Origin: a virus
Virus record (IMG/VR): IMGVR_UViG_3300020197_000053
Coordinates: 1-41,557 of that record
Reading direction: 5' to 3' (one strand)
DNA: 41,557 bases
The translations under genes were made by a program, and so were the position numbers. The notes under the pieces were generated by a model. That model did not search any database, was not told where the DNA came from, and saw only the letters and a list, made by a program, of their open reading frames with translations. Positions within the stretch are counted from its first letter, which is position 1; every line of letters begins with the position of its first letter. Positions 5,332 through 40,200 of this stretch are shown here, piece by piece.

Positions 5332-5332
5332 A

Positions 5333-17624: not shown

Positions 17625-17663
17625 GAGGTGTTGCGTGTATATTGCACAACCGCGGCAGGGTGT

Positions 17664-25390: not shown

Positions 25391-25470
25391 GGACAAGCTA
25401 TATGCCCTATCCATTCCAGATGCAAGAGAAAAGTTGACAAATTTATTGCCTCGGGTTTTCTTCTCTGCGC
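25391..25470. promoter_or_regulatory. Divergent promoter/operator region
   Basis: This AT-rich 80-base gap separates divergent gene blocks. Leftward: TTGCAT, 17-base spacer, TATAGC just upstream of the RHH gene. Rightward: a consensus TTGACA -35 at about 25434-25439 with a poor -10. Another TTGACA, also preceded by G, occurs at about 26064. This is the likely early control region. Confidence 0.45.
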
Positions 25471-25707
25471 ATGAGCAAAAAGCAATGCGGCACCAGCCTT
25501 GAACAAGCGCTTTACGAGCGCGTTTCGCGCGTCGCCACCGTCGACCGTCGAAGCATCGCCGAAGTGATCGCCGCCGCCGTGGCCGCAGGCCTCCCACTGC
25601 TCGAGGAAGAACTCAGCCGCCCGAAGTTGAACCTCTCCGACTACCTTTTGAACGACTCGCCACGCGCCGCAGCTCCAGCCGCAACACTCCGCACCGCCAA
25701 GAAATGA
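25471..25707 (+). CDS. Small RHH-like/antitoxin-type protein
   Basis: Protein of 78 residues: GTSLEQALYERVSRVATVDR then RSIAEVIAAAVAAGLPLLEE, a ribbon-helix-helix-like pattern, followed by a loose tail (KLNLSDYLLNDSPRAAAPAA). It is the first plus-strand gene and faces the RHH gene at 25187-25390, so the two may form opposing regulators. Start ATG 25471; the stop overlaps the next ATG. Confidence 0.55.
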   Translation: MSKKQCGTSLEQALYERVSRVATVDRRSIAEVIAAAVAAGLPLLEEELSRPKLNLSDYLLNDSPRAAAPAATLRTAKK

Positions 25708-25991
25708 ACTCGCGCGCCCGCCTCGCCTCGCTCCTCCTCCTCGCCCTCGTCCTCGCCGGCCACACGCAGACCGCCTCAGCGCCCGCGCCCTCGGCCACCG
25801 TCGGTCCCGTCGGCCGCTTCACTATCATTTCCGCCACCAGCGAGATCCTGCACGCCGACACCCTCGGCACCACGCGCGTCCCCGTCATCATCAAGCTCGA
25901 CACGTCCACCGGCCGCACCTGGCTTCTCGTCTCCGTCGTCAAGGACTCTCGCCAGATCGACACATGGCAAGAGATCACCCGCACCCAATAG
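25704..25991 (+). CDS. Secreted small protein
   Basis: Protein of 95 residues with a clear signal peptide (MNSRARLASLLLLALVLAGH, likely cleavage after TASA). The mature domain is a small beta-rich unit (VGRFTIISATSEILHADTLG, VPVIIKLDTSTGRTWLLVSV) ending WQEITRTQ. Export across the inner membrane is predicted. It might be a lysogenic conversion or envelope protein. Coupled to the preceding gene by ATGA. Confidence 0.55.
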   Translation: MNSRARLASLLLLALVLAGHTQTASAPAPSATVGPVGRFTIISATSEILHADTLGTTRVPVIIKLDTSTGRTWLLVSVVKDSRQIDTWQEITRTQ

Positions 25992-25994
25992 CTC

Positions 25995-26014
25995 GCGCAA
26001 AAATTATTTTGCGC
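25995..26014. promoter_or_regulatory. Palindromic hairpin after the secreted-protein gene
   Basis: GCGCAAAA, loop ATTA, TTTTGCGC forms a perfect 8-base-pair stem, 4 bases after the upstream stop codon. The sequence after the stem is not a T-run on either strand. It may be a weak bidirectional terminator or an operator. A half-copy (CGCAAAATTATTA) recurs at about 26051. Confidence 0.45.
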
Positions 26015-26213
26015 CTTTCGCGCTGTGGGGGTTGTCGGTTTCCATCACCTCGCAAAATTATTAGTTGACACATTCGCCGCCCCGTGAGACGCTCCCCGCG
26101 TCAACGTGAAAAGTGACACCAACAACAACGGCAGATTTCCCCGCCCCGCGGCGGTCCTGCGCGCGCCAGCGTGCAGCTTTTCACCCGTCGCGGGCGCGGG
26201 GTTCGGAGACACC

Positions 26214-26627
26214 ATGAAAACCAGCATCATCAACCTCCTGTCCCGGCTCGTGAACGTCGGATTCACCGTCGAGGAAGCCAACACGCTACGCCGCGCAGAG
26301 ATGACCCTTCACCGATGGGGAGAGCTCGAGTGTGGCGACGGCAACGACTACGCTTCCTGGTGCCTCGAGCGCGACGAGACGACGGGCAAGCCTTACCTCG
26401 TCACCTATCCGCACACGGGCAAAAGCTACCGCCGGCCCGTGGCCGACCGCGAGCGCGGCGCCCTGCGTCGGGTCGAGGCGGTTTGCAAGCGCGCCGGCCT
26501 GAGCTACTACCACCAGACCGATCCCCGCGGTTGCGCGCTCTACATCCTGCGGCCCGGCGACGTGCCCGACGGCCGCCCCGTGGACAGTTGCTACACAAAC
26601 GGAATCGCAGTTTGCGCCCACGCCTGA
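26214..26627 (+). CDS. Hypothetical phage protein (137 aa)
   Basis: ATG 26214 is preceded by GGAG (Shine-Dalgarno-like), so I prefer it over a GTG at 26106. Protein: LLSRLVNVGFTVEEANTLRR, then a segment of the EMTLHRWGELECGDG type, YASWCLERDETTGKPYLVTY, and a C-terminal VCKRAGLSYYHQTDPRGCAL. The 'ANTLRR.EMTLHRW.ELECG' pattern is one I associate with hypothetical proteins of phages from high-GC bacteria. Function unknown. Confidence 0.65.
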   Translation: MKTSIINLLSRLVNVGFTVEEANTLRRAEMTLHRWGELECGDGNDYASWCLERDETTGKPYLVTYPHTGKSYRRPVADRERGALRRVEAVCKRAGLSYYHQTDPRGCALYILRPGDVPDGRPVDSCYTNGIAVCAHA

Positions 26628-26712
26628 TCCGCCACTCCGCGCCCGGCCTCGAGCCGGACGCGGCCGGCGGGGCAGACCGCCCAGCACCGCCCCGGCGGCA
26701 CCGACAAAGACC

Positions 26713-26925
26713 ATGATCACCAACACCAACAACAACACCAACACCACCGTCGAGTCCTTGTTTGAAGACGCGCGTCGGTTTTCGGGCAGCATGAGCCACG
26801 GCGACGCCGTGTTCATGGCCGTGAACCAGGCCATCGACTTCGGATGGGTGGACAAAGCCGACAAATACGCGCTGTGCGACTTAGTCGCTGCGCGCCTTCG
26901 GAACTGGGAAGTGAACGGCAAGTAA
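26713..26925 (+). CDS. Small hypothetical protein with Asn/Thr-rich start
   Basis: Protein of 70 residues starting MITNTNNNTNTTVESLFEDA, then SGSMSHGDAVFMAVNQAIDF and DKADKYALCDLVAARLRNWE. The C-terminal helical domain is compact and acidic. The AAC/ACC-rich start is shared with the next two genes. Function unknown. Confidence 0.5.
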   Translation: MITNTNNNTNTTVESLFEDARRFSGSMSHGDAVFMAVNQAIDFGWVDKADKYALCDLVAARLRNWEVNGK

Positions 26926-26945
26926 CCACCAACACCAAAGCGCGT

Positions 26946-27164
26946 GTGACCAACAACACCAACATCCGCCGTTACCTAGCCGCGGCCTTTGAGTGGATAG
27001 CCGAAAACGACGAGCCTGGCTCATCGCTGGCTTGCGACACCGCGACTGTCGAGGGATACGCAACCGTTCAGTTTGCCGCCGCGTTGTTCAATAAAACCCC
27101 GTCTTACATTGCCCGCCGCGTGGTGGCTCGTAGGATGGGCTTAGATCGGCGGCGTCGAAAGTGA
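26946..27164 (+). CDS. Small hypothetical protein related to its downstream neighbour
   Basis: Starts at GTG 26946: VTNNTNIRRYLAAAFEWIAE, then EGYATVQFAAALFNKTPSYI and a basic end RRVVARRMGLDRRRRK. The first 11 residues match the start of the next gene (…TTNIRRYLAA), showing a local duplication. The basic C-terminus suggests DNA binding. Its TGA overlaps the next GTG. Confidence 0.45.
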   Translation: MTNNTNIRRYLAAAFEWIAENDEPGSSLACDTATVEGYATVQFAAALFNKTPSYIARRVVARRMGLDRRRRK

Positions 27165-27271
27165 GCACCACCACCACCAACATCCGCCGTTACCTAGCCG
27201 CCATCGGCCGCAAGGGCGGCGCGTCGCGGAGCGTTATTAGCGGGCGTGATACAACGGCGGCGCAGTATTAG
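27161..27271 (+). CDS. Short protein (36 aa) with 'RKGG' motif
   Basis: GTG 27161 overlaps the upstream stop. It encodes NIRRYLAAIGRKGGASRSVI then SGRDTTAAQY. The AIGRKGG segment is found in many tiny phage proteins that end with Arg/Lys/Ala repeats. The coding segment is duplicated at 27885-27942. Confidence 0.4.
   Translation: MSTTTTNIRRYLAAIGRKGGASRSVISGRDTTAAQY
27194..27252 (+). repeat. Duplicated coding segment (second copy 27885-27942)
   Basis: From CGCCATCGG to AGCGGGCGTGA the two copies differ at very few positions, with one long identical stretch starting CGCAAGGGCGGCGCGTCGCG. Both are read in the same frame as AAIGRKGGASRSVISGR. The second copy lies at the 3' end of the 27715 gene and overlaps the phage integrase end. 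Confidence 0.75.
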
Positions 27272-27306
27272 CGCGGCTGCAAAGTGCGGGCGGGAGCAAA
27301 CAGTTG

Positions 27307-27335
27307 TGGACAGTGCGTGCTAGCTCGCATATAGT
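27307..27335 (+). promoter_or_regulatory. Sigma-70-like promoter
   Basis: TGGACA (27307-27312), 17-base spacer, TATAGT (27330-27335), with an ATG six bases further on at 27342. The spacing is ideal. It would drive 27342-27718 and neighbours from a short-leader or leaderless transcript. Confidence 0.5.
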
Positions 27336-27341
27336 GAAGCC

Positions 27342-27557
27342 ATGAAAACGATCATCACTGAACTGAAAGACAGGCTGGCGCTGGTGGACATGGGGCAACT
27401 TCCTTACTGCGACAATGACGCCGGATACGTGGCACTATACAAGGATCAGGAGCGACAACTGGTGGACCTGATTCAGGTAGCCAACGATCTCCGCAGAGAG
27501 CTTGAACAAGAGCGCGAAAGCTACGAAGCCTGCCTGCGTTTCAAGTCCCGACAATGA
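27342..27557 (+). CDS. Small coiled-coil hypothetical protein (71 aa)
   Basis: Protein MKTIITELKDRLALVDMGQL, then YVALYKDQERQLVDLIQVAN and a coiled-coil end (LRRELEQERESYEACLRFKS). It is acidic and helical. It follows directly on a good promoter, and its TGA overlaps the next ATG. Function unknown. Confidence 0.5.
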   Translation: MKTIITELKDRLALVDMGQLPYCDNDAGYVALYKDQERQLVDLIQVANDLRRELEQERESYEACLRFKSRQ

Positions 27558-27718
27558 ACACCTGCCCGAAGTGCGGCCACCAGTGGCCAGACGCCAAACG
27601 CGCCAAAGGCGGGAAAGCCCGCTGGCGCGGAATGTCCAAGGCCCAACGAAAACAAGCCGCCAGCGAGGCCGCGAAAGCACGGTGGGTTAGGCGGCAGAAC
27701 GGAGCGGTCGCGCGATGA
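27554..27718 (+). CDS. Tiny zinc-knuckle/basic protein (54 aa)
   Basis: MNTCPKCGHQWPDAKRAKGG followed by KARWRGMSKAQRKQAASEAA and KARWVRRQ. It combines a CPKCG knuckle with the '(G)GKARW…KARW' repeat typical of very small phage DNA-binding proteins. ATGA overlaps link it to both neighbours. Confidence 0.55.
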   Translation: MNTCPKCGHQWPDAKRAKGGKARWRGMSKAQRKQAASEAAKARWVRRQNGAVAR

Positions 27719-28011
27719 AACCCAAAACACCACCCGCCGAGCTTTTCAAGTGCGACGCCTGCGGGCGCATCGCCAAACTTGAAACCCACAAACGCCACTG
27801 GTGCGACTGCAACCCGCGCGCGCCGTTCGCAATGCACAGCGTCAAGGATGCGCGCGTAACGGACGGCGTGATTTCCGCCTACCTCACCGCCATCGGTCGC
27901 AAGGGCGGCGCGTCGCGGAGCGTTATTAGCGGGCGTGAAGGAACGGTTTCCTTTCCCACCGCCAACGCCGCGACCACGTCCACGGCGCCCGCCCTCGGCG
28001 CGGCCGCGTAA
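27715..28011 (+). CDS. Small zinc-knuckle protein with duplicated tail
   Basis: Protein of 98 residues with CDACGRIAKLETHKRHWCDC (a four-cysteine zinc site), then the duplicated AIGRKGGASRSVISGRE segment. The last 40 codons run antisense across the 3' end of the phage integrase (27879-29231), so one of the two genes has an extended or recombined tail. Confidence 0.45.
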   Translation: MKPKTPPAELFKCDACGRIAKLETHKRHWCDCNPRAPFAMHSVKDARVTDGVISAYLTAIGRKGGASRSVISGREGTVSFPTANAATTSTAPALGAAA

Positions 28012-29231
28012 ATCTGCGTTGTCCTGACATCCTGGTGACCGAGCGCAGCCTGAACCGCCGTCACGTCGTTACTGCGCACCAAGACGCTCGCGTAGACCTT
28101 CCGCATCTCGTGCAGTTTCTGCCTCCGCGTCCACCCCGCCGCGATCAACCACGGCCCGAACCGGCGCGCCAACCGCTCGAACCCCGACGCGATCACCCGG
28201 TCACCCGGGCCCGTCGGCCATCCCAGCGCCACCGCGACCGACCGCGCCTCGCGCTCCGTCGCCTCGGCGCAAGGCACCTCCCGCTCTTCCCGGCTCTTCG
28301 GCATGAAGTCCGATTCAAAGCACACGCGCACGGATCCCGGCCTGAACCACCTCCACCGCATCGCCCGCAGCTCGCCCTTGCGCAGCCCCGTCTGGACTGC
28401 GAGCCACCAGAGCAGCCACAGCCCCGGCCGATCCACGCGCAACCGCTCCGCCGCCTCGAGCACCGCCGCCAGCACCGCAGGCTCGGGCAGCGAAGCCTTG
28501 CGCTTCGCCTCGCGCAGCTTGCGCGCGGCCAGGAACCCCGCGAGCTCGGGCATCACAAGCCCGGCGTAGGGCGCCCGCGCCATCACCTCGCGCGCGAAAA
28601 GCTGCCTTGCCTGGCGCACGTAACTGTTCGCGCTCACCGCGGCAGCGTTGCGCGCCTCGACCTCCTCCGCCGGCACCCGCGCCATCCACGCCCGCTGAAA
28701 CCGATACACGAGCCCCTCCGAAAACACGCTTGCCGGCAGCTCACCCACGTCCTCGCGCACGACGCCGTCCGCCACGCTCACCACCCGCTTGGCCGCGAGC
28801 ACCACGTTCTCGAAGGCCCGGCGCGGACGGTTCAACACCGGCGCCAGCGCGACATAAGCGGCGAACACCTCCTCGAGCCTCGCCACCGGCCGCCGCGAGT
28901 TCCGCGCCTCGACGTCCTCCCAACGCCCCGCCAGCGCGGGCAGAATGTATTGCCGAAGCGCCCGCTCCTCCGCGACCTTCCGCACGTTCGTCCCGAGCGA
29001 AGGGTGCATCATCCTCCCGCCGACGATCGCGCGCAGATACCAGATCGCGTCCCGTCCCGGCGACCCCTCGGCCCCGGCCGGCGCGCGTCGGTAAATCTTG
29101 AACCTTCGCCCGCCGTGCTTGACGTAAGCCGTCGAGTCCGGCGACCCTCCACCCGCCGCCCGCGAGGCGCGGCCTTCATCTGACATGCAATCAACCGTTC
29201 GATCTGGTGCTTGGTTTGGTGCGGACTTCAT
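27879..29231 (-). CDS. int: Phage tyrosine integrase
   Basis: Protein of 450 residues. After an Arg/Gly-rich start there is an arm-binding-like region (GGRRFKIYRRAPAGAEGSPG, AIWYLRAIVGGRMMHPSL), a core-binding helical domain (about 120-255), and the catalytic domain with R in TGLRKGELRAMRWRW, HEMRKVYASVLV (H..R), LGHQDVRTTQIYAAAP (H and the tyrosine nucleophile). It differs from the neighbouring integron integrase in sequence, length and domain layout. It is expected to integrate the phage at a tRNA-Arg site; the candidate attP lies 127 bases upstream of its start. The 3' 130 bases overlap a plus-strand gene. Confidence 0.9.
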   Translation of the reverse strand: MKSAPNQAPDRTVDCMSDEGRASRAAGGGSPDSTAYVKHGGRRFKIYRRAPAGAEGSPGRDAIWYLRAIVGGRMMHPSLGTNVRKVAEERALRQYILPALAGRWEDVEARNSRRPVARLEEVFAAYVALAPVLNRPRRAFENVVLAAKRVVSVADGVVREDVGELPASVFSEGLVYRFQRAWMARVPAEEVEARNAAAVSANSYVRQARQLFAREVMARAPYAGLVMPELAGFLAARKLREAKRKASLPEPAVLAAVLEAAERLRVDRPGLWLLWWLAVQTGLRKGELRAMRWRWFRPGSVRVCFESDFMPKSREEREVPCAEATEREARSVAVALGWPTGPGDRVIASGFERLARRFGPWLIAAGWTRRQKLHEMRKVYASVLVRSNDVTAVQAALGHQDVRTTQIYAAAPRAGAVDVVAALAVGKETVPSRPLITLRDAPPLRPMAVR

Positions 29232-29280
29232 TTGCGAGACTATGCGTAGTCCTGCGAACTACTGCAACCAAAATCCGCAC

Positions 29281-29348
29281 CAACCCCTTGCCCGCGCCAC
29301 CGCAACCCCTTGCACCCCATTCAAAACCGCGTGAATTTCAACCCCTTA
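29281..29348. repeat. Three CAACCCCTTG repeats (putative integrase arm-type sites)
   Basis: CAACCCCTTG at 29281-29290 and 29303-29312, and CAACCCCTTA at 29339-29348, all in the same orientation between the integrase gene and the tRNA-like core. Short direct repeats flanking a tRNA-identical core are typical arm-type binding sites of tyrosine integrases. Confidence 0.5.
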
Positions 29349-29357
29349 CAAACCCCC

Positions 29358-29400
29358 GCGCTGGTAGCTCAATTGGATAGAGCTTCTGACTTCGGAGCAG
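29358..29400 (+). other. attP: Candidate attP: 5' half of tRNA-Arg(TCG)
   Basis: GCGCTGG, TA, then a D-arm GCTC…GAGC and the anticodon stem-loop TCTGACTTCGGAGCAG, i.e. positions 1 to about 42 of a tRNA with anticodon TCG (loop CTTCGGA). The 39-43 side of the stem is imperfect and no T-arm or acceptor complement follows, so it is not a functional gene. Its place beside the phage integrase makes it the likely attP core. Unusually it preserves the 5' rather than the 3' half. Confidence 0.55.
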
Positions 29401-29478
29401 TGTCGGGCGGGGCGCTGAGCGTTGAAGGGCAGAGGGTTGCCCGCGGGCTCCCGGCGTTGGTGCGGCGTATGGTGCGGC

Positions 29479-30459
29479 TCAGTCCAGCGGGCCCTTCACG
29501 CGGGGCTTGCGGGTGTCCTTGGATCCGAGGTAGCGCATGGTCGTCTCGACGTTGCGGTGCCCGAGCGCTTTCTGAATCTCCGCGATCGGCGTGCCGCGGC
29601 GCTCCATCTCGCGGGCGCTGGCGTGGCGGAGCGAGTGCGGGGTGATGCGCTTCTTGATCCTCAACTGCGTCCTCGCCGAGCGGAGCGCCCGCTGCAAGGT
29701 GTCGGGCAGCGTGTGGTGCCGGCCGCGCTTGCCGCTCGACGGGTCGCGCGAGTCCTGAGCCTGGGCGAACACGTATTGCCATCCGGTCTCGAAGTGCAGT
29801 TTGGGATTCTTGCGCCCGAGAAGCCCGGGCAGGAAGACCCAGCCGCGGCCGTCGCGCTTCTCGGCGGCGTGCTCTACCTCGCGCCGCGCCACGAGATCGC
29901 GCAACTCGCGCGCGAGCTTGGACGGCAACGGGACCACGCGGTCCTTGTCGCCCTTGGATCCGCGCACGTAGATTTCACCGTTGGCGAAGTCGAGGTCTTT
30001 CAAGCGCAGCCGCAGGCAGTCGTGCAACCGGAGCGCCGAGCCGTAGATGAGCCGGAGCGCGAGGCCGGCATCGCCGGGGACGGCGCCGACGATCTTCATG
30101 GCGTCCTCGTGGGATGCGGGGACGTCGGGCAGGCGTTCGGGCCGGGTCGCGCGGGCGAAGGCGGGGAACTGGCCGAGCTCGAGATTGAGCACGTCGCGGA
30201 AGACGAACACGAGCGCGTTGAGCGCCTGGTGCTGGGTGGAGACCGACACGCCCCGGCGCGCCTCGGCCGTGAGCCAAGCGGCGATCTTGGCCTCGGCGCC
30301 GTCGCGCAGCTCGGCCTCGGACTTCAGGCGGTGATATTGAACGAACCTTGCGAAGTGGTGCCAGTATTGGCGAGACGTGTGCAGGCTCAAATGCCTGAGC
30401 GCGACGACGTTGTCAAATCGGACTCGCAACCGTGGCTTGGGTGGCTCGACCTGCGGCAT
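29479..30459 (-). CDS. intI: Integron integrase (IntI-type tyrosine recombinase)
   Basis: Protein of 326 residues from ATG 30459; an upstream in-frame extension would run through attI and the promoter, so it was rejected. N-terminal SAM-like domain (about 12-100, VSVSTQHQALNALVFVFRDV). Catalytic residues R144 (YGSALRLHDCLRLRLKDLDF), K172 (GSKGDKDRV), H275/R278 (HSLRH), H301 (ALGHRNVETTMRY) and Y310 sit close to the spacing of IntI1. The IntI-only insertion is present at about 222-249 (TGWQYVFAQAQDSRDPSSGK, then RGRHH), which separates IntI from XerC/D and phage integrases. It ends VKGPLD like other IntI proteins. It should catalyse attI x attC cassette capture and attC x attC excision. attI and four attC-bounded cassettes lie next to it. 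Confidence 0.95.
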   Translation of the reverse strand: MPQVEPPKPRLRVRFDNVVALRHLSLHTSRQYWHHFARFVQYHRLKSEAELRDGAEAKIAAWLTAEARRGVSVSTQHQALNALVFVFRDVLNLELGQFPAFARATRPERLPDVPASHEDAMKIVGAVPGDAGLALRLIYGSALRLHDCLRLRLKDLDFANGEIYVRGSKGDKDRVVPLPSKLARELRDLVARREVEHAAEKRDGRGWVFLPGLLGRKNPKLHFETGWQYVFAQAQDSRDPSSGKRGRHHTLPDTLQRALRSARTQLRIKKRITPHSLRHASAREMERRGTPIAEIQKALGHRNVETTMRYLGSKDTRKPRVKGPLD

Positions 30460-30465
30460 CTCGGC

Positions 30466-30494
30466 ATTATAGCGACGTCGTGCTGTATAATCAA
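30466..30494 (-). promoter_or_regulatory. PintI: intI promoter overlapping attI
   Basis: On the minus strand: TTGATT (30494-30489), a 17-base spacer, TATAAT (30471-30466), then six bases and the intI ATG. Spacing is ideal, the -10 is a perfect consensus, and transcription should begin at or beside the ATG, giving a leaderless mRNA. The -35 box lies three bases from the attI crossover. Confidence 0.65.
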
Positions 30495-30504
30495 CTGTTA
30501 GAGC
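30484..30504 (+). other. attI: attI insertion site
   Basis: TGTATAATCAACTG followed by TTAGAGC; crossover after G30497. It is directly upstream of intI and is the left boundary of cassette 1. The left side GTATAATCAACTG recurs at the second site near 17677. On the minus strand the core supplies AAC AGT TGA, the last codons of whichever reversed cassette ORF is inserted first. Confidence 0.8.
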
Positions 30505-31144
30505 GCAAGGCAGACGCCATCGGCAGCTCTGGTGTTTGGTTTCGGTGTCCTTCAATAAAACGTTCAAGGGCGGGAACCTTGTCCTGCCGTGAGGGGTCGC
30601 GGAACCAGCCAGTCCCGTCCACCGATTCGCAGCCTAGCCGGGCGCAGGCTTCGATCATTTCTGGCGCGTTCACGCGGGCGCAGTGGACACGCGGGAAACT
30701 TTGAGTCCACATTTCGAGATTGGGGAATTTCCAGCCATCGCTGCCGCCCACAAACACCACATCGGCATCGGCAGGCACATCGGCGGGAGTCATGCCGTCT
30801 TGGACACAAAAGGCTGCTGGCCAGCCGAGGCGTTTGATTTCGTCGCGGTAGATCGGCCAGTTGGCAAGCGTTGCTTCGCGGTTTGCCACCACATCCGGCA
30901 CCGCTGCCCACAGCGGTTTCTGGCCGGTCATCCGTATCCATCGCAGCATCCCGCGCCACGCTTCCACGTCCCACAGTTTCTTGTCGCGCCACGCCGTAAA
31001 AGCGTCATTGTCCAGCACGAACGGCATCCACTTATCCACGGGGACTTTCTTGCCATAGGACGGGCCAATCAGCACGCCCACCGAGCCGGGGTGTCTCCCG
31101 GCCCAGTAGTGCCAGACGCGATTGGATTGTCCCATGATGAGCAT
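30491..31144 (-). CDS. dpdA2: DpdA2-like DNA-guanine transglycosylase
   Basis: Protein of 217 residues; ATG 31144 overlaps the queC stop (TGATG). The motif series FVLDNDAFTAW, PLWAAVPDVVANREATLANW, CVQDGMTPADVP, VFVGGSDGWKF, ARVNAPEMIEACARLGCESV and DGTGWFRDP matches the short TGT-like proteins (DpdA2 type) of phages that insert 7-deazaguanine bases into DNA. Aspartates in 'VPDVV' and 'QDGM' are the expected substrate/catalytic positions of the TIM-barrel family. Substrate would be preQ0 made with the help of the adjacent QueC. The C-terminal RSNS and stop span the cassette/attI junction. Confidence 0.8.
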   Translation of the reverse strand: MLIMGQSNRVWHYWAGRHPGSVGVLIGPSYGKKVPVDKWMPFVLDNDAFTAWRDKKLWDVEAWRGMLRWIRMTGQKPLWAAVPDVVANREATLANWPIYRDEIKRLGWPAAFCVQDGMTPADVPADADVVFVGGSDGWKFPNLEMWTQSFPRVHCARVNAPEMIEACARLGCESVDGTGWFRDPSRQDKVPALERFIEGHRNQTPELPMASALRSNS

Positions 31145-31821
31145 CACGCGATTGCGGCGTTTAGTTTTTGGCAGGCTGGGCATTTGCCGCACGGGCCTGT
31201 TTCGGTTGGTTGGTAGCACGTCCAGATTTCGTCTGGCCGGATGCGGAAGTCAGACGCCAGCCGCGCAATCCACGCCTTTGATTTGTCGAGATACGGGGCG
31301 CAGATTTCCACGTCATATCCTGCCGCCTCAATGGCGGCATTCATCGCATCCAGAAAAGCCTTGCGGCAGTCGGGGAAGTAATCGGCATCGGCGGCATTGC
31401 ATCCGATTGTCACAGTGTCCGCACCAGCCTGCGCGGCCACATTTACCGCCACGCTCAGAAAGATGGCGTTGCGGTTTGGCACGACCCACGATTGCTCATT
31501 CAGTCCACCGAGTTGCGGAAGTTCCATTCGCGTCCACAGCACTCCCGCCCGCTTCGCGTGCGTGATTGCAAACTGGAGTTCCTGCTTGTGGCGTTGCTTG
31601 TAGTCGAACAGCAGAGCGTGAACGCGATGACCTTGATTGGTTAGGTCGTAAAGCATGGTCACGGAGTCGAGGCCGCCGGATAGTAGATGGATGATGGTTT
31701 TGGGGATCATAGGATTGCGCTCTAACATCACGTTGCAGCCAACGGGCGATGTGCCGGTCAGTTCTGCGGTGTTGGTGTTGTCTGAGTTCATGGTTATTCG
31801 CGCCCGTGGCTGACCTTGGCG
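30498..31821 (+). mobile_element. Integron cassette 1 (dpdA2-like + queC)
   Basis: Cassette of 1324 bases between attI (after G30497) and the R' box of attC1 (G31821). Its first bases TTAGAGCGC are the exact reverse complement of the R'' region GCGCTCTAAC at 31717-31726, so the free circle has a perfect R''/R' pair. It contains two overlapping genes on the minus strand and no attC between them. Confidence 0.85.
31144..31710 (-). CDS. queC: QueC, 7-cyano-7-deazaguanine (preQ0) synthase
   Basis: Protein of 188 residues. PP-loop ATPase motif LLSGGLDSVT at 9-18, followed by TMLYDLTNQGHRVHALLFDY and a VPNRNAIFLSVAVNVAAQAG helix that is diagnostic for QueC. There is a C-terminal four-cysteine zinc site (WTCYQPTETGPCGKCPACQK). 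It converts 7-carboxy-7-deazaguanine to preQ0 using ATP and ammonia. An alternative ATG at 31728 overlaps the attC1 R'' box, adding MLERNP. Its stop is coupled to the dpdA2-like start, so the product is probably handed to DNA modification. Other preQ0 pathway genes (folE, queD, queE) are absent and would come from the host. Confidence 0.9.
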   Translation of the reverse strand: MIPKTIIHLLSGGLDSVTMLYDLTNQGHRVHALLFDYKQRHKQELQFAITHAKRAGVLWTRMELPQLGGLNEQSWVVPNRNAIFLSVAVNVAAQAGADTVTIGCNAADADYFPDCRKAFLDAMNAAIEAAGYDVEICAPYLDKSKAWIARLASDFRIRPDEIWTCYQPTETGPCGKCPACQKLNAAIA

Positions 31822-31827
31822 TTAGCC
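31720..31827 (+). repeat. attC1 recombination site
   Basis: R'' CTCTAAC (31720-31726) to R' GTTAGCC (31821-31827), 108 bases. Left arm TTGCAGCCAACGGGCG pairs with the complement of the right arm (GTCAGCCACGGGCG), leaving G and A unpaired on the left arm, as in the other four sites. Confidence 0.85.
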
Positions 31828-32673
31828 GGCCACACACCCGCACGGCATTTCGTGCGGCTCGATGTCCAGCATCATTTTTATTTGGGCTTCGTCCATTGCC
31901 AGCCAGTCCGCCCACAGGTTGCCGCCGCCACCTAGCCCGATTTTGGTGCGGTTTCTCGCCTGTGCGGCCGCCTCGATTCTCAGCGCGGACGCCAGCAGTT
32001 CGGGATGGTTTTCTTTGAGTCGCACGACTTCGCTGCGCTTGCTCGCCGGACAGAAGTAGCACGCGCTCTTTCCGGCCTGCGGTATTCCGTGGCGGCAGAT
32101 TGCCGATTGGCAGTCCTCTTGCCGCCATTGCCATTCGACGAGCGGATACCAGTAGCGTTCCGTCAGACCTTTCGCCAGTTGCTTGCTCGTAGGCTTTCCG
32201 GCGACGCGGTAGCCTTCATCCGCGTGGTATCCGATACACTTCACGATTTCGCTCACGCCATTTTCACGCATCCACGTCTTTATGTATCGTTCCATCGGTT
32301 CGTGCTTGAAGCGCTGAGAGCATGACCGCGAGCCATACGCCAGAGCGGGCAGGAGTTTTTTCTTTTCGCAGTCCTGCACGATTGTCCACGGTTGATTTTT
32401 GCGCGTGGCTTGCACCGTCACGAGTTCGAGATTCCACCACTCGCGGATTTTCGCCCGCATGATTTCGACGTGCGCATAGGTATGCGGCATTTCCGCGCCG
32501 GTATCCGCGAAGATTATGAGCGCGGGTTTGATTCCCCGCGTCTTGAAGCCACAGAGCATCGCAGTCGAGTTAGTTCCACCGCCATAAGAGACGGCTAACA
32601 AGGCGCTGGAGCGAACAGCCATGAGCGCCGGGCTGGCGTCTTGCGTGATAGGTTGCGTCTCGGCGGCGCTCAT
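31822..32673 (-). CDS. PP-loop / PAPS-reductase-like protein
   Basis: Protein of 283 residues. PP-loop SYGGGTNSTAML near residue 30, then ALIIFADTGAEMPHTYAHVE, a PAPS-reductase-family pattern, SCSQRFKHEPMERYIK in the middle, and a C-terminal zinc site CRHGIPQAGKSACYFCPASK. The family (adenine nucleotide alpha hydrolases: PAPS reductases, DndC-like, QueC relatives) activates a substrate with ATP. The specific reaction is unknown; a role in DNA or nucleotide modification is possible given the neighbouring DpdA2/QueC cassette. The first 50 codons lie inside attC2; ATG 32622 is an alternative start just ahead of the PP-loop. The stop TAA comes from the attC1 core. Confidence 0.75.
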   Translation of the reverse strand: MSAAETQPITQDASPALMAVRSSALLAVSYGGGTNSTAMLCGFKTRGIKPALIIFADTGAEMPHTYAHVEIMRAKIREWWNLELVTVQATRKNQPWTIVQDCEKKKLLPALAYGSRSCSQRFKHEPMERYIKTWMRENGVSEIVKCIGYHADEGYRVAGKPTSKQLAKGLTERYWYPLVEWQWRQEDCQSAICRHGIPQAGKSACYFCPASKRSEVVRLKENHPELLASALRIEAAAQARNRTKIGLGGGGNLWADWLAMDEAQIKMMLDIEPHEMPCGCVAG

Positions 32674-32694
32674 GGCTGTCGCTCAGCTTGGGCG
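31822..32694 (+). mobile_element. Integron cassette 2 (PP-loop protein)
   Basis: Cassette of 873 bases from the attC1 crossover (after G31821) to G32694. Its start TTAGCCG pairs with R'' CGGCTAAC of its own attC2 (32592-32599). A single ORF on the minus strand fills it from end to end. Confidence 0.85.
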
Positions 32695-32700
32695 TTAGAC
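32593..32700 (+). repeat. attC2 recombination site
   Basis: R'' GGCTAAC (32593-32599) to R' GTTAGAC (32694-32700), 108 bases. Arms GCTGGAGCGAACAGCCATGA and the complement GCTGAGCGACAGCCATGA pair over more than 20 bases, with two unpaired bases on the left. The ends TAACAAGGCG … GGGCGTTAG are almost textbook attC. Confidence 0.9.
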
Positions 32701-32988
32701 CAAATCGCCATAGAACAGCCCGCACTTGTTCGGGGTTTTGGTTTTTGCACTAGATGAGAGCGCCACAGATAGTCCGCAACCGGCGCTATGGTGCTTTCCG
32801 ATGACGAGCTTTATTTCCATCGTCATGTTTGCATCCAGCACGCTGCGGATTTCCTTGGTCACGTATTCTTGAGTGAGGTATCCAGCCATCAGCCGCATTG
32901 CCTCTTCTACGGTTTTTACGCGGCCATTGTCGCCGGATAGTTGCTTCGCCGCTTGGCGGTTTATTGGTGTTCGGTCTGCGGTAATCAT
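32695..32988 (-). CDS. Unknown protein of cassette 3 (97 aa)
   Basis: MITADRTPINRQAAKQLSGD, then a helical region (KTVEEAMRLMAGYLTQEYVT) and a strand-rich centre (NMTMEIKLVIGKHHSAGCGL) with a C-terminal GLFYGDLV. No family was recognised. ATG 32988 lies four bases past the attC3 R'' box, and the stop TAA is formed by the TTAGAC at the start of the cassette, so the ORF fills the cassette between its recombination boxes. Confidence 0.65.
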   Translation of the reverse strand: MITADRTPINRQAAKQLSGDNGRVKTVEEAMRLMAGYLTQEYVTKEIRSVLDANMTMEIKLVIGKHHSAGCGLSVALSSSAKTKTPNKCGLFYGDLV

Positions 32989-33076
32989 AAAGGTCTAACC
33001 ATTGCGTGCAGCGAACGGGCCTTCCACGCTGCGGGTTGATTCGGGAGCGCCAGCAGGCCCGTCGCTGACGCAGGTG
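32695..33076 (+). mobile_element. Integron cassette 3
   Basis: Cassette of 382 bases. Start TTAGACC pairs exactly with R'' GGTCTAAC (32992-32999) of its attC3; right boundary at G33076. One minus-strand ORF. Confidence 0.8.
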
Positions 33077-33082
33077 TTCGGC
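32993..33082 (+). repeat. attC3 recombination site
   Basis: R'' GTCTAAC (32993-32999) to R' GTTCGGC (33076-33082), 90 bases. TGCGTGCAGCGAACGGGCC pairs with the complement of the right arm (TGCGTCAGCGACGGGCC), with two extra bases on the left. R' is non-canonical because it is formed with the start of cassette 4. Confidence 0.8.
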
Positions 33083-33312
33083 GAACCCAATCGTTCGCTC
33101 ATGTGTTGGCGCAGGGATTTGCTTGCGTCCACGCCGTCACGTTTCGATTTATACCACCACCAGCGGAGAAAGGCGTGTATCCATGCATCCGTTTTCACGT
33201 CGCGTCTTAGCACTTCAGCGTGCCATCTCCGAACCAAGCGATCGAGCGAACGCCGGGGAGCGCGGATGCGTCCCGGTTGCAATCGCTGCCGTTTCTTCGC
33301 GCTCCCCGTCAT
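32995..33312 (-). CDS. Unknown basic protein of cassette 4 (reads through attC3)
   Basis: Basic, Trp-rich core AWIHAFLRWWWYKSKRDGVD then ASKSLRQHMSERLGSPN. Upstream codons (MTGSAKKRQRLQPGRIRAPR…) lie inside attC4; GTG starts near 33208 and 33193 are alternatives. No stop exists within the cassette. If inserted first at attI, the frame would end PN-S-stop on AGTTGA. In its present place it reads through attC3 and ends …FAARNG at a TAG. No family recognised. Confidence 0.5.
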   Translation of the reverse strand: MTGSAKKRQRLQPGRIRAPRRSLDRLVRRWHAEVLRRDVKTDAWIHAFLRWWWYKSKRDGVDASKSLRQHMSERLGSPNTCVSDGPAGAPESTRSVEGPFAARNG

Positions 33313-33327
33313 CGCTCACCTTTCTCG
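33077..33327 (+). mobile_element. Integron cassette 4
   Basis: Cassette of 251 bases. Start TTCGGCG pairs with CCGAAC of its attC4 (33229-33234); right boundary at G33327. It is the last cassette before the portal gene and holds one minus-strand ORF that lacks its own stop. Confidence 0.7.
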
Positions 33328-33333
33328 TTCCCG
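33228..33333 (+). repeat. attC4 recombination site
   Basis: R'' TCCGAAC (33228-33234) to R' GTTCCCG (33327-33333), 106 bases. Arms GAGCGAACGCCGGGGAGCGC and complement GAGCGATGACGGGGAGCGCG pair with an extra A on the left. Core boxes are CGAAC/GTTC rather than CTAAC/GTTAG. Confidence 0.7.
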
Positions 33334-33422
33334 TCTCGCTTCATCCCGTGTATTCTGCCGAATAACCGCACGGTGTCAAGCGGCTTTCTGGGGTGGTCGG
33401 CCGCGGGCTTCGGCGCGGGCGC

Positions 33423-35567
33423 TCAGGCGCCGACGGGCTTCACGCCGGTGCGGCCGGTCACGACGTTCTGCCCGAGCTGCACGACGGACTGTTGCAGGTT
33501 CTTCTGGTAGTTCTCCATGAGCGCGCGGAAGCGCTCGTTGCTTTGCAACGCCTCCTGGTAGGCCGGGTTGCCGCCGCGGCCGGTCTGGTCGCCGAAAACG
33601 ATCTGGCTCAAGAACTGGAGCTTCATCTGCGCGGTCGGATCGTTCTCGACGTATTCGGCCTCGTTGCCGGCGCTCATGCGCAAAACCTGCTTGTCGACCT
33701 CGTCGAACACCGCCTTGGACGCGCCGGTCTGGTCGCTCACGATGGATTGCGCGAGCGAGGGGTCGATGGCCGCGAGCGTGAGCCCGACGAGTTTATTGTG
33801 GTCGATCAAGCCGCCGCGGTCGATGGGCACGGCGAGCTTGTTCACCGCCTCGAGCTTGCGGAAGGTGTAGTCCATGTCGAGGTCGCGCGCGTCGAAGACG
33901 AGCTGCACGTCGAACTGCCCGGCGATGTCCTGCGGCGAGCGCGGGAAGTCGGGGTTGCTGCCGGCGTAGCGCTCCATCTCCTCGGGCGTGAGGAACTGTT
34001 GCGCGAGCTGGAGCATCTGCGTGAAGACCGCCTCGGCGCTGGTGAGAAAGCCATCGCTCGCGGCCTGCATCTTGGCCTGCCAGCGGGCGGGCAAGACCTC
34101 GGGCTCCATAAGTCCGAAGTAATTCGCGGCGCGGGCGCGGACCATCTTGACCACCTCGAACGCGATGTTCGGCGAGCCCGGGGGCGGCTTGAGGAAGTCG
34201 ATTTCGTTTTCGCGCGCGCGGGTCACCTTGACGCCGGGGCCGATGTTGAACTTCTGTCCCATGCGCGCCGGCACGAGCAACGTGGGGTTGACTTCGAGGC
34301 TGGTGCGGTCGGTGAGCGCGTCGCACTGGGCCTTCTCCTCGTATTGCCAGGTCACGGCCACGTCGGGCACGCCGCGGGCGTCGAGCAACCGGCGCGAGAC
34401 ACGTTCGCGGGCGAGCTCGATGAAGGGATACTGCGCGTGATCGTAGCCGAGCGCGTAGTGCCGGGCGTAGATCGGCTCGCCGCGCTCGTCCTGAAGCGCG
34501 TAGGGGCTGAACACCGTGACCCAGACCTGCGGCACGCCGTCGTCGTCCACCTTGCGGACGTAAGCCCACAGCACCTCGACGAGATCCTGCCCGTCACGCA
34601 CGGCGCTCGCGGCCATGAACTCGTTCTCCAGACTCTTGCGGCCGGCGAGCAGCGCGGCGTTCCAATCGGTGAAGCGCCCGCGGGTCTTCATGGCGTGGTC
34701 CACCCAGTTGGCATCCCAGCCCTCGGTCAGCACGTTCTCGCGCAGCTCGGTCTCGGTGAGATAATCCTTCACGAACATGACCCGGGCGCGCTGGAGCGTG
34801 GACGTCTCGATGGGAAAGAAGATGTCCTCGGCGACACGTCGCGCGGTGACGCAAGGACCGTTGCGCGAGATGTAAGTCTCGGGGAAGGTGGCGCGGCCCT
34901 GCTCGCGGAGTTCGCGGACGAGCTTGCGGGCGCGGGCGGGCTTGAGCTTGAGCACCTCGGCGGCGAGCGCGACCACGGCCGGCTCCTGCGCGGGGTCGAG
35001 GAGCATCGAAGTCAGTTGCGGCATCCCGGCGGCTTGCGCGGCGTAGCCGACCTCCTCGAGCGTGATCGTGCGGTAATGAGCGGAGACCTGGCGTTCCCAG
35101 TCGACCTGCATCACGCCGACGCCGTAGGTGAGCATGTATTGCAGCGCGAGCTCGGCCTCGCGCCGGAGGTCGCGCCGGTAGGTCGCGCGCAAGTAGTCCA
35201 TCACCTTCTGGACGGCGCCGGCGCGGGCGGTGTCCTGGGCGCGGCGGGCGACCACCTTGAGCTGGGCGCGTTGGAAGGCCATGAGCAGCACCACGAGCAG
35301 GTCGTTGATGATGGCGTCCACGGTCGGGATCCGCGAGTCGGCCGCGCCTTCCCACGGAAACGGCTCGGCGCCGTCGAGGTTCTCGCGGTGCTTCTTGCCG
35401 TCGCTCGACTGGCCGGTCCAGCGCATGAACCGCACCTCCTCGGCGCGCTCGGTGCGCGAAAGGCTGTTCCAAGAGCCTCCGGCCTTTTCATACTCACGCA
35501 GGAGCCGCCGCATGTCGGGCTGCTCGGTTACTTGCAACAGTTCGTCGTGTTCGTTCGTTGTGTTCAT
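33423..35567 (-). CDS. Portal protein
   Basis: Protein of 714 residues downstream of terL. The N-terminus includes NLDGAEPFPWEGAADSRIPT and VDAIINDLLVVLLMAFQRAQ, a pattern of podovirus-like portal proteins. The middle has QYMLTYGVGVMQVDWERQ and the typical C-terminal region includes YQEALQSNERFRALMENYQK. Twelve copies are expected to form the ring through which DNA enters. Length is in the range of podophage portals. The start lies close to the terL stop. Confidence 0.85.
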   Translation of the reverse strand: MNTTNEHDELLQVTEQPDMRRLLREYEKAGGSWNSLSRTERAEEVRFMRWTGQSSDGKKHRENLDGAEPFPWEGAADSRIPTVDAIINDLLVVLLMAFQRAQLKVVARRAQDTARAGAVQKVMDYLRATYRRDLRREAELALQYMLTYGVGVMQVDWERQVSAHYRTITLEEVGYAAQAAGMPQLTSMLLDPAQEPAVVALAAEVLKLKPARARKLVRELREQGRATFPETYISRNGPCVTARRVAEDIFFPIETSTLQRARVMFVKDYLTETELRENVLTEGWDANWVDHAMKTRGRFTDWNAALLAGRKSLENEFMAASAVRDGQDLVEVLWAYVRKVDDDGVPQVWVTVFSPYALQDERGEPIYARHYALGYDHAQYPFIELARERVSRRLLDARGVPDVAVTWQYEEKAQCDALTDRTSLEVNPTLLVPARMGQKFNIGPGVKVTRARENEIDFLKPPPGSPNIAFEVVKMVRARAANYFGLMEPEVLPARWQAKMQAASDGFLTSAEAVFTQMLQLAQQFLTPEEMERYAGSNPDFPRSPQDIAGQFDVQLVFDARDLDMDYTFRKLEAVNKLAVPIDRGGLIDHNKLVGLTLAAIDPSLAQSIVSDQTGASKAVFDEVDKQVLRMSAGNEAEYVENDPTAQMKLQFLSQIVFGDQTGRGGNPAYQEALQSNERFRALMENYQKNLQQSVVQLGQNVVTGRTGVKPVGA

Positions 35568-35570
35568 AGT

Positions 35571-37262
35571 CTAATAACCTCCGCCGCCGCCGAAACATAC
35601 CGGGGCCCTGGCGTCCACATATTCCACGGGAAACTTGGCGGCCATCTTCAAACAGTCGACGGGGTCCTTGCTCGCGCCCTTCTCGCCGTCGGCGCCGGTC
35701 CACTCGCGCAGGCTGAAGATGGTGTTCTCGCAATCCTCGGAGACATAAAGCTGCGGGCAGTTCAAGGCGTCTACCGGGCGCAAGGTGTCGTAGTCGAGCC
35801 AGTCGTTGATGAGCGTGGACCCCTCGTCCACCTTGCAACCGGGCGCGGGCATCCACTCCATCGGGGCCTGGGCGACCGCGCCCTGGCCGTCGAGTTGCTC
35901 GTCGAGCATCATCTGCACGATGCTCGTGCCCTCGTCGAGCCCGGGCACGGCGGCGTTGCCGGCCCGCGGGTCGATGATGCGACCGTAGACCTCCTCGGAT
36001 TCCAACTCGCGCAAGAGCGCCTTGTAGCCCGTGATGCCGCGGCCGGCGTCGTTCTTCTGGGCGGGGCCCGGCTTGCCGTCGGCCTTCTCGCTTGGCAACG
36101 CCCATTCGCCGTGCGTGAGGCGCGAAGGCCACTCGCGGTAGACAAACTTGCGGCCGAGCGCGTCCACCCGGATCCAGATGAAGAACCAGTTCTTGGCGCC
36201 GCCCGGGTCGCAGATGCACCAGTTCGTGCCCTCGACCGGCACGTCGGCGCGCTTGACGATGTTGAGGTCGCCAAACTTCGGGAACACGTTGCCGGCGAGC
36301 TTGTCGGCCCAGCCGTAAGCGCGGACCTTGATCTCGGTGCTCGGCCGGCCGGCGAGCGCCTCGACAAGCTGCTTGTAGGGCGAGTAGGGATTCTCCGAGG
36401 TGTGGAAATAGACCACCCGCTGAGATTTCCTGAGCGGTTCGAGCACGTAAGGCATCGTGCCCTTAATGCAACCGGCCACGTTTACGCGGTCAAGCAGGAG
36501 CGGACTCGGCAACGTCTCGGCCACCCTTGCGCCGGCCACGTAGTCCTTGACCACGAGACTGTAACCGTTGACCGGCGTGAAGGTGATGAGCAGCTTGGCC
36601 CGGCGGGTCACGAGACGGTAGCGCAGAGTTTCAACCCAGTCGTAGGGCACGAGTTCATCGCACCAGACGCCGACGATCGGGCCGTCGAGCGCGCCGAGCT
36701 CGCCGCCCTCGATCACCTTGGGGTCTTGCATGTAGTTCATGAACCAGCATTGCGACCCGTTCGGCAGCACGAAGGTGTTCTCCGAGAAACCGTTCTTCTG
36801 GGTGTAGCAGACATTGGTCACCCGGCCGCGCTTGCCGATGTCGCGCCACTCGGGCGGGAGATACTTGTGGATGACCGGCTGTTGCATGGCCACGCTCGTG
36901 TTGGCCGAGGAGTGGAGGCACCAGGCGCGGGCGTTCTCGTGGTTGACGAGCCCCTCGACCACGAGCTTGGCGGCGAGTTCGGTCTTCGACGCGCGGTTGC
37001 CGCCTTGGATGAGCAAGTCGTCGCAGACGCCGAGCAGTTCGCGGGCGCGCTTCCACGGTCGCGGCTCGAAGCCGTGGTTGAGCGGGTCGGTCTGCTCGAG
37101 TTCGATGAGCTTCTCGCGCTGGAGCAGGGCGTCCACAAGTTGCTGGAAGCGCGCGGGCTCCTGCCGGGCGAAGGCGACCTGCGCCGGCGTGGGCAAGGGC
37201 AACGTCGGCCACGGCGTCGGCTTGAACGCCTGGGCTGGAGCGGTGGCGGTGGGCGTGTTCAT
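35571..37262 (-). CDS. terL: Terminase large subunit
   Basis: Protein of 563 residues. The ATPase domain has Walker A GGNRASKTE (about 87-95) and Walker B IVGVWCDE (about 196-203), and a LLITFTPVNGYS coupling motif. The C-terminal RNase-H-like nuclease starts with WCICDPGGAKNWFFIWIRVD and contains IIDPRAGNA and a late acidic/Lys segment (SKDPVDCLKMAAKFP). It packages DNA through the portal encoded next. ATG 37262 overlaps the stop of the giant virion gene. Its C-terminus is glycine-rich (FGGGGGY). Confidence 0.95.
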   Translation of the reverse strand: MNTPTATAPAQAFKPTPWPTLPLPTPAQVAFARQEPARFQQLVDALLQREKLIELEQTDPLNHGFEPRPWKRARELLGVCDDLLIQGGNRASKTELAAKLVVEGLVNHENARAWCLHSSANTSVAMQQPVIHKYLPPEWRDIGKRGRVTNVCYTQKNGFSENTFVLPNGSQCWFMNYMQDPKVIEGGELGALDGPIVGVWCDELVPYDWVETLRYRLVTRRAKLLITFTPVNGYSLVVKDYVAGARVAETLPSPLLLDRVNVAGCIKGTMPYVLEPLRKSQRVVYFHTSENPYSPYKQLVEALAGRPSTEIKVRAYGWADKLAGNVFPKFGDLNIVKRADVPVEGTNWCICDPGGAKNWFFIWIRVDALGRKFVYREWPSRLTHGEWALPSEKADGKPGPAQKNDAGRGITGYKALLRELESEEVYGRIIDPRAGNAAVPGLDEGTSIVQMMLDEQLDGQGAVAQAPMEWMPAPGCKVDEGSTLINDWLDYDTLRPVDALNCPQLYVSEDCENTIFSLREWTGADGEKGASKDPVDCLKMAAKFPVEYVDARAPVCFGGGGGY

Positions 37263-40200
37263 TGCGCAAACTTCTCCAGCGCGGTCTCGTAGCGGCGACG
37301 GTCGATGGGGCGGACGTTGAAGCCGCCGAGTTCAAGCAGCCGTTGGAGGTCGCTGGCGACCTGCGGCGAGACCGACCGGGTGCGGCGGTCGAGCGGGCCC
37401 TCGGGCGGCAAGGTGCTCTCGGCCGGTCCGTGCTCGCCGGGCGCGCCCGTGAGCAGCCGGTCGAGCAAGCCCGTGACGTGTCCGACCCGCGCCGCGTCCC
37501 ACACGCCGGGCTCGAAGCCCTGCTGCTTGCTCGCGGTCCGGCGGCGTTGGACGGGGTCAATCCACCGGATCACGAGGTCGGCCTGGCGCGAGCCGGGCAC
37601 GAAGCTGTCAAGCGTCTGGTCAGTGACGTAAGCCACGGTCGGCACGCCCGAGGCGTAGGGATCGACCAGTGTGCGCTCGCGCGGGCGGTTGCTGAGTTCG
37701 CCGAGCAGCTTGGCGGGCACCTTGACCGCGGCGCCCACGCTCAGGAAATCGCTCGCCAGATCGCTCGCGGCCCGGGCGTAAGTGCGCGCGCCCTCGACCG
37801 CGCCGAACTTCCTCGCGTCCTCCTCGGCAAGCAACGCCGCCCCGGCCATGGCGATGGCGGGGTAAGACCGCACCCGCAGCCAGAAGTCCTCCTCGCGCTC
37901 GGTGCCGAGCCCCATCTGCCGGGCCCAGGCCGAGAGGTTGATGCGGTTGCTGGTGATCAGCTCGCGCGGGAGAACCTTGGACGTCACGTTGCCGTCGGCG
38001 TCGAGGTCCTTGACCACGGCCGTGCCGACGAGCTGGCGCGCCTCGGCGTCGTCGTCGTCCTTGTCGCCACGGGCGAGGTAGGCGGCGAGGATGCCGAGCC
38101 CGCCCGCGGGCCACATGAGGAAGGTCATCACGTCGGCGAAGGCGTCGGCTCGCTGGCGCGCGGGCACCTTGGAGAGCAGCGTCTTGACCGCGGCCGCTCG
38201 CCTCGCGTTCTTGGCGATGTAATGATAGCCAAAACGCGGGAAGGGCATCACGAGCTTGGAGTAGTCGTTGCTGGCGAAGTTTTCGAGCCACGCCGGTGAA
38301 TCCGAGTAGTTAAGCAGCTCGAAGCCCGCCATGGCGACCGCTTGCGCCCGGTCCGACATCGGCGGGTTGCGCAGGTAAGTCTCGACCGCGGTGCGGAGCG
38401 CCGCGCCCTTCAAGCCCGCCTCGCGCGCGCGGGTCACGGCGCGGGCCTTGAGGAAGGCGTAAGCCATGCGTTGCTTCGAGCGCACGTCGATGTTGCCGTA
38501 GCGGATGGCCTGAAGCGCCGCCGCTCCGATCTCGCCCTTGCGGAGATAACTCAGCGGGTCCTCGTCCATCCGCACCTTCACGTCGGCGAGCGCGGTCTGG
38601 TCGGCGAACAGGTTGTCCGGCAGCACCTCGGCCACGGTGTCGCGGAACTGCGGGTCCACGAGCCCGCGCAAGCCGGGAAACCACTTCCACGCCTCGGCCA
38701 CGAACAACTCGCGCGCGAGGCGGAGGTCCTCGGGGTTGCCGCCGGCCACGCCCGACAAGATGCGGCGCGTCGCGGCTTCGAGCGTGAAGAGGTCGTTGGT
38801 GAGCACGTTGGCTACGTAAGTGACGGGATGCGCAAGGAAGAGCCGGGCCGAGTTGCGGACCGCCCAGGCGCCGAGGCGATAGAGCATGCCGTGCTCGACC
38901 TGCGCGGTGTAACGCCGCACAAGCTGGTCGACGAGCGCCGAGGGCAACATCAACTGCCGTCCTCGCAAGCGCGCCGCCTCGCCGAAGAACGCCTTGTATT
39001 CGGGCGAACCATCATCGGTCAGGCGTTGCTCCGTCTCGGGAAACTTCGGGTTGCCGGTCGTGGGATCCACGGGCGAATGCCAGCGGCGCAAGCGCTTCAC
39101 CGCGTTCCACAAGTCCGCCATGCCCGTGTCCAGCTTCGTCCAGCCGGGCGGGACCACGTTGCCTTGGATCGGCGTGGCCGCGTCCAAGACCGCCCGCATC
39201 CACTCCCTCCGCCCGCGCTCGGCGAGCATCTGAAACGTCCGCACATTGAAGCCGCTGAGCAGGTCGCGCACGTGCCCGCCCTCGCGGCTTGTGCCGCTCT
39301 TGTATCGCCGCCCCGGCGACCGCGTGCCCGCCCTGAAGCTGAGCGCGCCCCGGATCGCCCCGAGCAGGCTTCGCGTCACCAGCACGTCGGGCGTGTAAGC
39401 CGTGAGCGGCGAGAAGTTCGGGTCGCCATCGGCCATCATCGCCGCCGAGGCGAACCGATTGAACACCGGCACCTGGACGCCGTTCACCGTCTGCCTCACG
39501 TTCGCAAGCGCCGGGTCGATGAACATGTCCACAAACCACATCATCTCGGGGAACTCCCGCGCGAAGTGGTCGTAGACCTCCCTTTGCGTCTGCGCCGACA
39601 CCGGCCGCGCGAGCTGATGGAACACGCGCCCCTCGGGCGTGGTCACCACCGGGCCGAGCGTGAGCACCTCGGTGACGCCCGTGAGCGGGTCGGTCGTCTG
39701 GAACTGGTCGCCCGGTTGCAAGCCCATCTGCTCGGCCGTGCCCAGGCTCATCCCGCCGGCGCGCATCGTGAAGTCTTGAAACACGAAGTTGCCCTGCGCA
39801 TCGCGCCCCGTCGCGTTCAACCGCGCCGCGATATGCAAGGCTCGGCGCTTGAACGCCCGCGCCCGGGGCGAACCCACGAGCCACTTCGGCAACGCGAACC
39901 GCCCCAGCACCGTGCTCGGCGCGGCGGACTCGACCAGCTTGCGCCAAAGGTCGTCCGACTGCCGCTTGACCGCGGCGGCTTGGGTGGCCTCGCTCACTTG
40001 CAGCTTGCGCTGCTCGGCGGCGAGTTCGGCCGAGCCGAGCGTGGCGACCTGCGCGCTCACGGGCGCGGCGCGCGTGAGCAAGCCGGGCGCGCCCTTGGCG
40101 AGCGTGGCGTCGTCGTAAGGCGGATGCTGCTCCAGCGGGATGTTGGCCACTCCCGCGAGCGCCTCGATCTGGTTGAGGTGCGCCTGGCCGTTCGCGCTCA

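Follow-up and report, generated by a model that had tools for sequence, protein, structure and literature searches.

Integrons are generally taught as bacterial devices in which a promoter, Pc, drives the expression of forward-facing gene cassettes. The DNA analyzed here (the window, 41,557 bp) is the whole of a linear IMG/VR virus record and carries, between positions 29,479 and 33,333, an integrase gene (intI), an attachment site (attI) and a run of cassettes bounded by attC sites. Judged from the sequence, these features support a complete integron in the genome of a tailed phage. The original prediction presented such an arrangement as a departure from what is known, which overstated its novelty. 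Complete integrons and clusters of attC sites lacking integron integrases (CALINs) were described in phages in 2023, some with methyltransferase cassettes, and attC function was reported in E. coli (Qi et al. 2023; PMC9892861). Because of that publication, the phage integron as such is not new.

The window shares with these published cases an intI, an attI and attC cassettes within a phage genome, DNA methyltransferases being among the published cassettes, and it shares with Shewanella M16-3 the possession of two attI sites (PMC9892861). In the accessible portion of that paper, however, the complete integrons are fragments of host integrons or of class 1 integrons and bear ordinary cassettes, and the Vibrio cases are explained as captured host integrons. 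The window differs in its divergent IntI, its reversed genes, its cargo of Mom, QueC-DpdA and PAPS-reductase-like proteins, and a second attI that lies in the body of the phage. The same portion of the paper describes typical same-direction cassettes and, in one phage, attC sites of divergent direction, but no reversal of genes.

Class 1 and sedentary chromosomal integrons have the same intI-attI-array polarity as the window and the same R''L''..L'R' attC organization, including the extra base in L''. Unlike theirs, the genes in the window read towards attI and intI rather than away from them, and there is no sign that a Pc within intI would serve them. In spirochaete-type integrons, the intI gene is flipped and the genes keep their normal relation to attC. 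The window resembles these in that intI and cassettes share a direction (PMC9668308), but here attI stays 5' of intI and it is the relation between gene and attC that is flipped. The gene families, and their proposed role in protection from restriction, recall Mom of phage Mu and the 7-deazaguanine modification made by DpdA and QueC, which is reported to shield phage DNA from restriction (PMC6884629). In contrast to both, the genes of the window travel as integron cassettes. In the open-licence papers that our searches covered, the accessible parts do not describe a systematic reversal of cassettes; within the literature searched, this reversal, a clade of phage-only IntIs and the presence of a second attI in the body of the phage appear new.

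Integrase, attI sites and cassette boundaries

The gene at 29479-30459 (minus strand) encodes a 326-residue integron integrase. It scores 272.6 bits against TIGR02249 (cutoff 265), and its closest solved structure is VchIntIA (2a3v, 6e-44). The original prediction had named an IntI-specific insertion, a full set of catalytic residues and a PLD terminus, all of which are borne out by alignment with IntI1 and VchIntIA: R144, K169, H275, R278, H301 and Y310 are kept, and both the insert and the PLD end align. A tree of 105 rows gives 100/100 support to the split between IntIs and XerC/D, and it puts the window protein among the former; this placement had been proposed as a check. Its best identity is 41%. 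Elsewhere in the same tree, a 42-row clade consists of phage-only IntI (support 85/90). A single-sequence scan with P0001 matched nothing in viral contigs and only distant recombinases in genome contigs.

The predicted attI, facing intI with its core G^TTAGAGC at 30497, adjoins the 5' end of the gene (30480-30504, plus strand). It contains a 21-bp site, GTGNNGTATAWTCAACTGTTA, of which the window has two exact copies, one at 30480 and one at 17660; shuffled sequences had none, even with up to 3 mismatches allowed. The duplicate had not been noticed before. This second attI, GTGTCGTATATTCAACTGTTATGC (17660-17684, plus strand; exact copy at 17660-17680), lies about 12.8 kb from the first, just ahead of the scaffold and capsid genes. 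It is occupied by a single cassette (17677-18307), the fifth in the window, that contains a mom-like gene (17671-18279, minus strand; phrog_1384, 3.2e-32) and ends in its own attC (18188-18314, plus strand; 26.1 bits, E 1.1e-4; score 54.7), with core and R'' complementary at 7/7 positions. An independent contig from another metagenome, IMGVR_UViG_3300020200_000168, carries the mom cassette at 100% identity, so the cassette truly belongs to the phage. Scanning other contigs for the exact attI pattern gave 96 matches, mostly attributable to chance but including one independent contig of the same phage; a longer attI pattern gave none.

Four attC-bearing cassettes were predicted beside the first attI. 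To search for their sites, we used a covariance model with the standard R''L''/L'R' structure trained on 35 attCs from outside the window (33 from phage contigs and 2 from a class 1 integron); a model without structure was discarded. Two sites reach E <= 1.1e-4, both on the plus strand: the attC of the mom cassette and attC2 of the main array (32592-32700; model match 32593-32700, 27.0 bits, E 5.9e-5; score 54). The remaining sites, all on the plus strand, are attC1 (31719-31827; 11.7 bits alone, with a fold score), attC3 (32992-33082; 13.0 bits but a score of 55) and attC4 (33227-33333; 14.1 bits, E 0.16), which is a degenerate terminal site; the model places these three at 31720, 32993 and 33228. 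A combined profile-plus-duplex score reaches 54-55 at three sites; its maximum is 45.6 elsewhere on the same strand of the window and 44 across related phage DNA (1.04 Mb), an imperfectly matched control because those relatives are lower in guanine-plus-cytosine (GC) content.

The cassette boundaries provide separate evidence. Each R'' is the reverse complement of the start of its own cassette, at 8/8 positions in three cassettes and at 7/8 in the fourth. In cassette 1, for example, the core GTTAGAGC pairs with R'' GCTCTAAC throughout. A random GTT/AAC pair has a probability of 0.002 of matching at 8/8, and the boundaries jointly have a probability of about 5e-12. Three of the four predicted cassettes are closed by good sites, and the last site is degenerate. 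All attC top strands lie on the plus strand with attI at the intI side, which is the layout of ordinary integrons.

Cassette cargo and polarity

The cargo appears to be mostly of the DNA-modification type. Cassette 1 (30498-31821 on the plus strand; core/R'' 8/8) carries two minus-strand genes: queC (31144-31791; PF06508 1.1e-44, phrog_1550), with a likely ATG start near 31710, just past the attC R'' box, and a gene for a dpdA-like DNA-guanine transglycosylase (30491-31219, likely start at 31144; phrog_15826 5.6e-28), which matches annotated DpdA-like proteins. A low-confidence fold model of the latter gave only generic TIM-barrel-like matches, none with E below 0.001, and the sequence matches favor DpdA. 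Cassette 2 encodes a PAPS-reductase-like protein (31822-32673, minus strand; phrog_424 5.1e-35, PF01507) whose frame stays open through attC2. Cassettes 3 and 4 hold minus-strand open reading frames (ORFs) of 97 residues (32695-32988) and 105 residues (32995-33312), with no family match and an orientation that is not proven.

The queC-dpdA DNA is 72-80% identical to an operon in another phage contig (L237), in which no attC was found, and the order queC-queD-dpdA occurs in a further one (L241). Near those genes, at 54-478, L241 (a 56.7-kb viral contig with no detected IntI) has two attCs of the window's type with a reverse ORF between them. In the window, the reversed frames at 17671-18279, 31144-31791, 31822-32673 and 32995-33312 run open through attC with an ATG inside the hairpin, and because of this, translation may start within the recombination site.

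Genes along the attC top strand are a typical, though not obligatory, feature of integrons, and the family-assigned cassette genes of the window depart from it. The genes for QueC, DpdA, the PAPS-reductase-like protein and Mom all lie on the minus strand, opposite to the attC top strand and co-directional with the terminase large subunit (terL) and portal genes. The original prediction mentioned neither this polarity nor the modification cargo. The same reversal recurs in other phages. We collected IntI loci from viral contigs (the best 80 of 395 relatives) and called attC arrays with the covariance model. ORF length is uninformative for cassette direction at high GC, so we relied on codon usage and Pfam matches. 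Codon usage called 30 cassettes reversed and 4 forward in the other IMG/VR phage loci (91 of 125 cassettes were uncallable), compared to 0 reversed and 16 forward when the same pipeline was applied to bacterial chromosomal integrons, and 0 and 4 in an isolate contig (L088). The difference between phage and bacterial polarity is significant by Fisher's test (p 1e-9; at the level of loci, p 0.0015). By Pfam, reversed ORFs in the phage loci include five PAPS_reduct matches, two Mom matches and several methylases; forward ORFs gave one helix-turn-helix match.

These loci also sit among phage genes. When nine of them were scanned together, portal (five matches), TerL (four), protease and primase were found within about 10 kb of IntI, in agreement with the suggestion that viral contigs would show intI beside terL or portal. 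In about 17 of 49 records, as in the window, the gene after IntI on the same strand encodes another tyrosine recombinase. Because phrog_2 misses most terminases here, the window's own terL included, its count of 6/49 is not read as a lack of phage genes. Neither SU10_MCP nor a profile of the window's TerL found relatives among the other IntI contigs, so they represent different phages.

Two further arrays have another arrangement. In Virus Rctr41k (L007, KX853513.1), a further phage integron occupies 4680-8813: an IntI annotated as xerD has four mutually consistent attC-like sites beyond its 3' end, so that intI is flanked by the array on its opposite side, and the cassette-like genes include a methyltransferase. 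The sites come from a heuristic scan only and were not listed by the covariance model. On a Gemmatirosa plasmid (L011, 3001-6580), an integron has its attC array on the same strand as intI and downstream of that gene.

Proposed function and competing explanations

The most probable explanation, in our view, is that the integron is resident in a tailed phage, probably a temperate one, and has two attI sites and reversed DNA-modification cassettes. The phage IntI is predicted to recombine attC cassettes into both phage attI sites, one beside intI and the other about 12.8 kb away, ahead of the scaffold and capsid genes. The cassettes would bring phage-type modification genes (queC-dpdA, PAPS-reductase-like and mom), inserted backwards relative to attC, unlike those of bacterial integrons. 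Given this reversed insertion, they would be transcribed together with the phage's own genes (terL and portal first, followed by the array and lastly intI) or from a promoter at the array's distal end, and the Pc inside intI would not be used for their expression. Cassette direction suggests that transcription enters from the portal side. The cassettes probably serve as swappable DNA modifications by which the phage escapes restriction in its host, and the locus may act as the cassette-capture platform originally envisaged.

Several findings weigh against this explanation. By the covariance model alone attC1, attC3 and attC4 are weak (11.7-14.1 bits, not significant), yet they lie in the expected place and on the expected strand. 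The codon-usage test gave no call for the window's own cassettes, and promoter matches are at chance level. The IntI branch is very long (2.54), leaving its exact position in the tree unsure, and the protein has unusual residues, with RYLG replacing IYTH; its activity may therefore be altered or lost. Positions 23,927-41,557 are known from a single assembly: IMGVR_UViG_3300020200_000168 matches 1-23,926 at 99.98-100% but ends before intI. Finally, relatives have scaffold and capsid directly after portal, and here 16 kb (33423-17363) holding the integron, the phage integrase and replication genes intervene. Owing to this departure in gene order, a rearrangement or misassembly is possible.

The long branch, the degenerate attC4 and the weak attC1 could also reflect decay, in which the cassettes have settled permanently into the phage genome and are no longer shuffled by IntI; the mom cassette is unchanged in one sample, as decay would allow. 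We consider this unlikely, because the IntI frame is unbroken and retains every catalytic residue, three of the cassette boundaries match perfectly, and the GC content of the cassettes differs from that of the phage, which suggests that they arrived recently. At 0.585, the cassettes and array look foreign, whereas intI (0.685) is in line with the phage (0.65-0.67). This combination fits an old resident integrase with newer cargo.

The integron adjoins a candidate attP and the phage integrase gene, which is to say a prophage end, so a piece of a host chromosomal integron might have been taken up by imprecise prophage excision. Host capture has precedents and was proposed for Vibrio anguillarum phages (in the accessible portion of PMC9892861). 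It would explain neither why the body of the phage holds a second attI with a cassette, 12.8 kb away, nor why intI has phage-like GC and the cassette genes belong to phage families. There is also no close bacterial IntI (best 41%), and the cassettes are reversed as in other phages. Capture is decidedly unlikely on these grounds. An assembly chimera joining integron-bearing DNA to a phage contig is more doubtful still, and we hold it to be very improbable. One assembly alone spans intI, array and portal, and the gene order is unlike that of relatives, so the concern raised about a chimera stands for 23.9-41.6 kb. It is answered for the remainder, in that the independently confirmed phage region holds the attI copy together with a cassette whose attC is of the same type; many other phage contigs, moreover, have intI beside terL/portal or a phage integrase. 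That IntI is simply a second phage integrase with incidental attC-like hairpins is scarcely credible given the attC structure, the boundary complementarity and the attI duplication, even though intI adjoins a phage integrase here and in other phages and some IntI contigs show no attC.

Beyond this one genome, it is an evenly balanced question whether environmental tailed phages share an integron of this kind, with reversed, phage-transcribed cassettes that exchange anti-restriction modification genes and with attI at more than one place. If a reversed-cassette phage form is widespread, phages would be using integron recombination for themselves and would have a means of exchanging anti-restriction modifications rapidly, and the cassette pools of phages and bacteria would be connected. 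Cassette polarity would offer a simple search marker for such systems, and it yields a testable prediction about transcription.

Phage genome context

The predicted flanks of the integron were largely recovered. Membership among the tailed phages is supported by terminase, portal, major capsid and replication genes. On the minus strand, terL (35571-37262) has Walker-type motifs and relatives annotated as large terminase, including one at 75% (L095), and the portal-like gene (33423-35567) follows terL in almost every relative retrieved; homologues of the two occur in hundreds of viral contigs. The remaining phage hallmarks are an SU10-type major capsid, a DnaB-like helicase, a DnaD-like loader and a head-closure-like protein.

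Features of a temperate phage are less evenly represented. A tyrosine recombinase of the phage integrase type adjoins intI (27879-29231, minus strand; PF00589 1.4e-11, phrog_1 2.4e-19). The predicted attP corresponds to a sequence resembling the 5' half of a tRNA (29358-29458, plus strand), which scores 21.4 bits (E 0.036) with a tRNA model and falls short of the Rfam gathering score of 29; an Rfam scan of the window at gathering scores returned zero matches.

Two promoter-like sequences flank the array. One (TTGACA-16-CAGAAT; 33352-33379, minus strand), between portal and array, reads into the cassette genes, and the other (TTGATT-17-TATAAT; 30466-30494, minus strand), with 10/12 consensus positions, overlaps attI in front of intI; in neither region does the number found exceed chance. 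A LexA box at the intI promoter was rejected, as a half site alone was seen.

The record is probably near-complete, because its two contig ends fall within the same large, repetitive gene; the end repeats do not join them to close the genome. Modules of the form VDAYxIKLPxGWTREGDLYVPP recur at 1-621 and 40797-41557, within one very large gene at which the assembly probably broke. A 107-bp direct repeat (19678-19784 and 19914-20020, 97% identical), with the DnaB-like gene and a weak Lar-like domain as neighbors, is possibly a replication origin.

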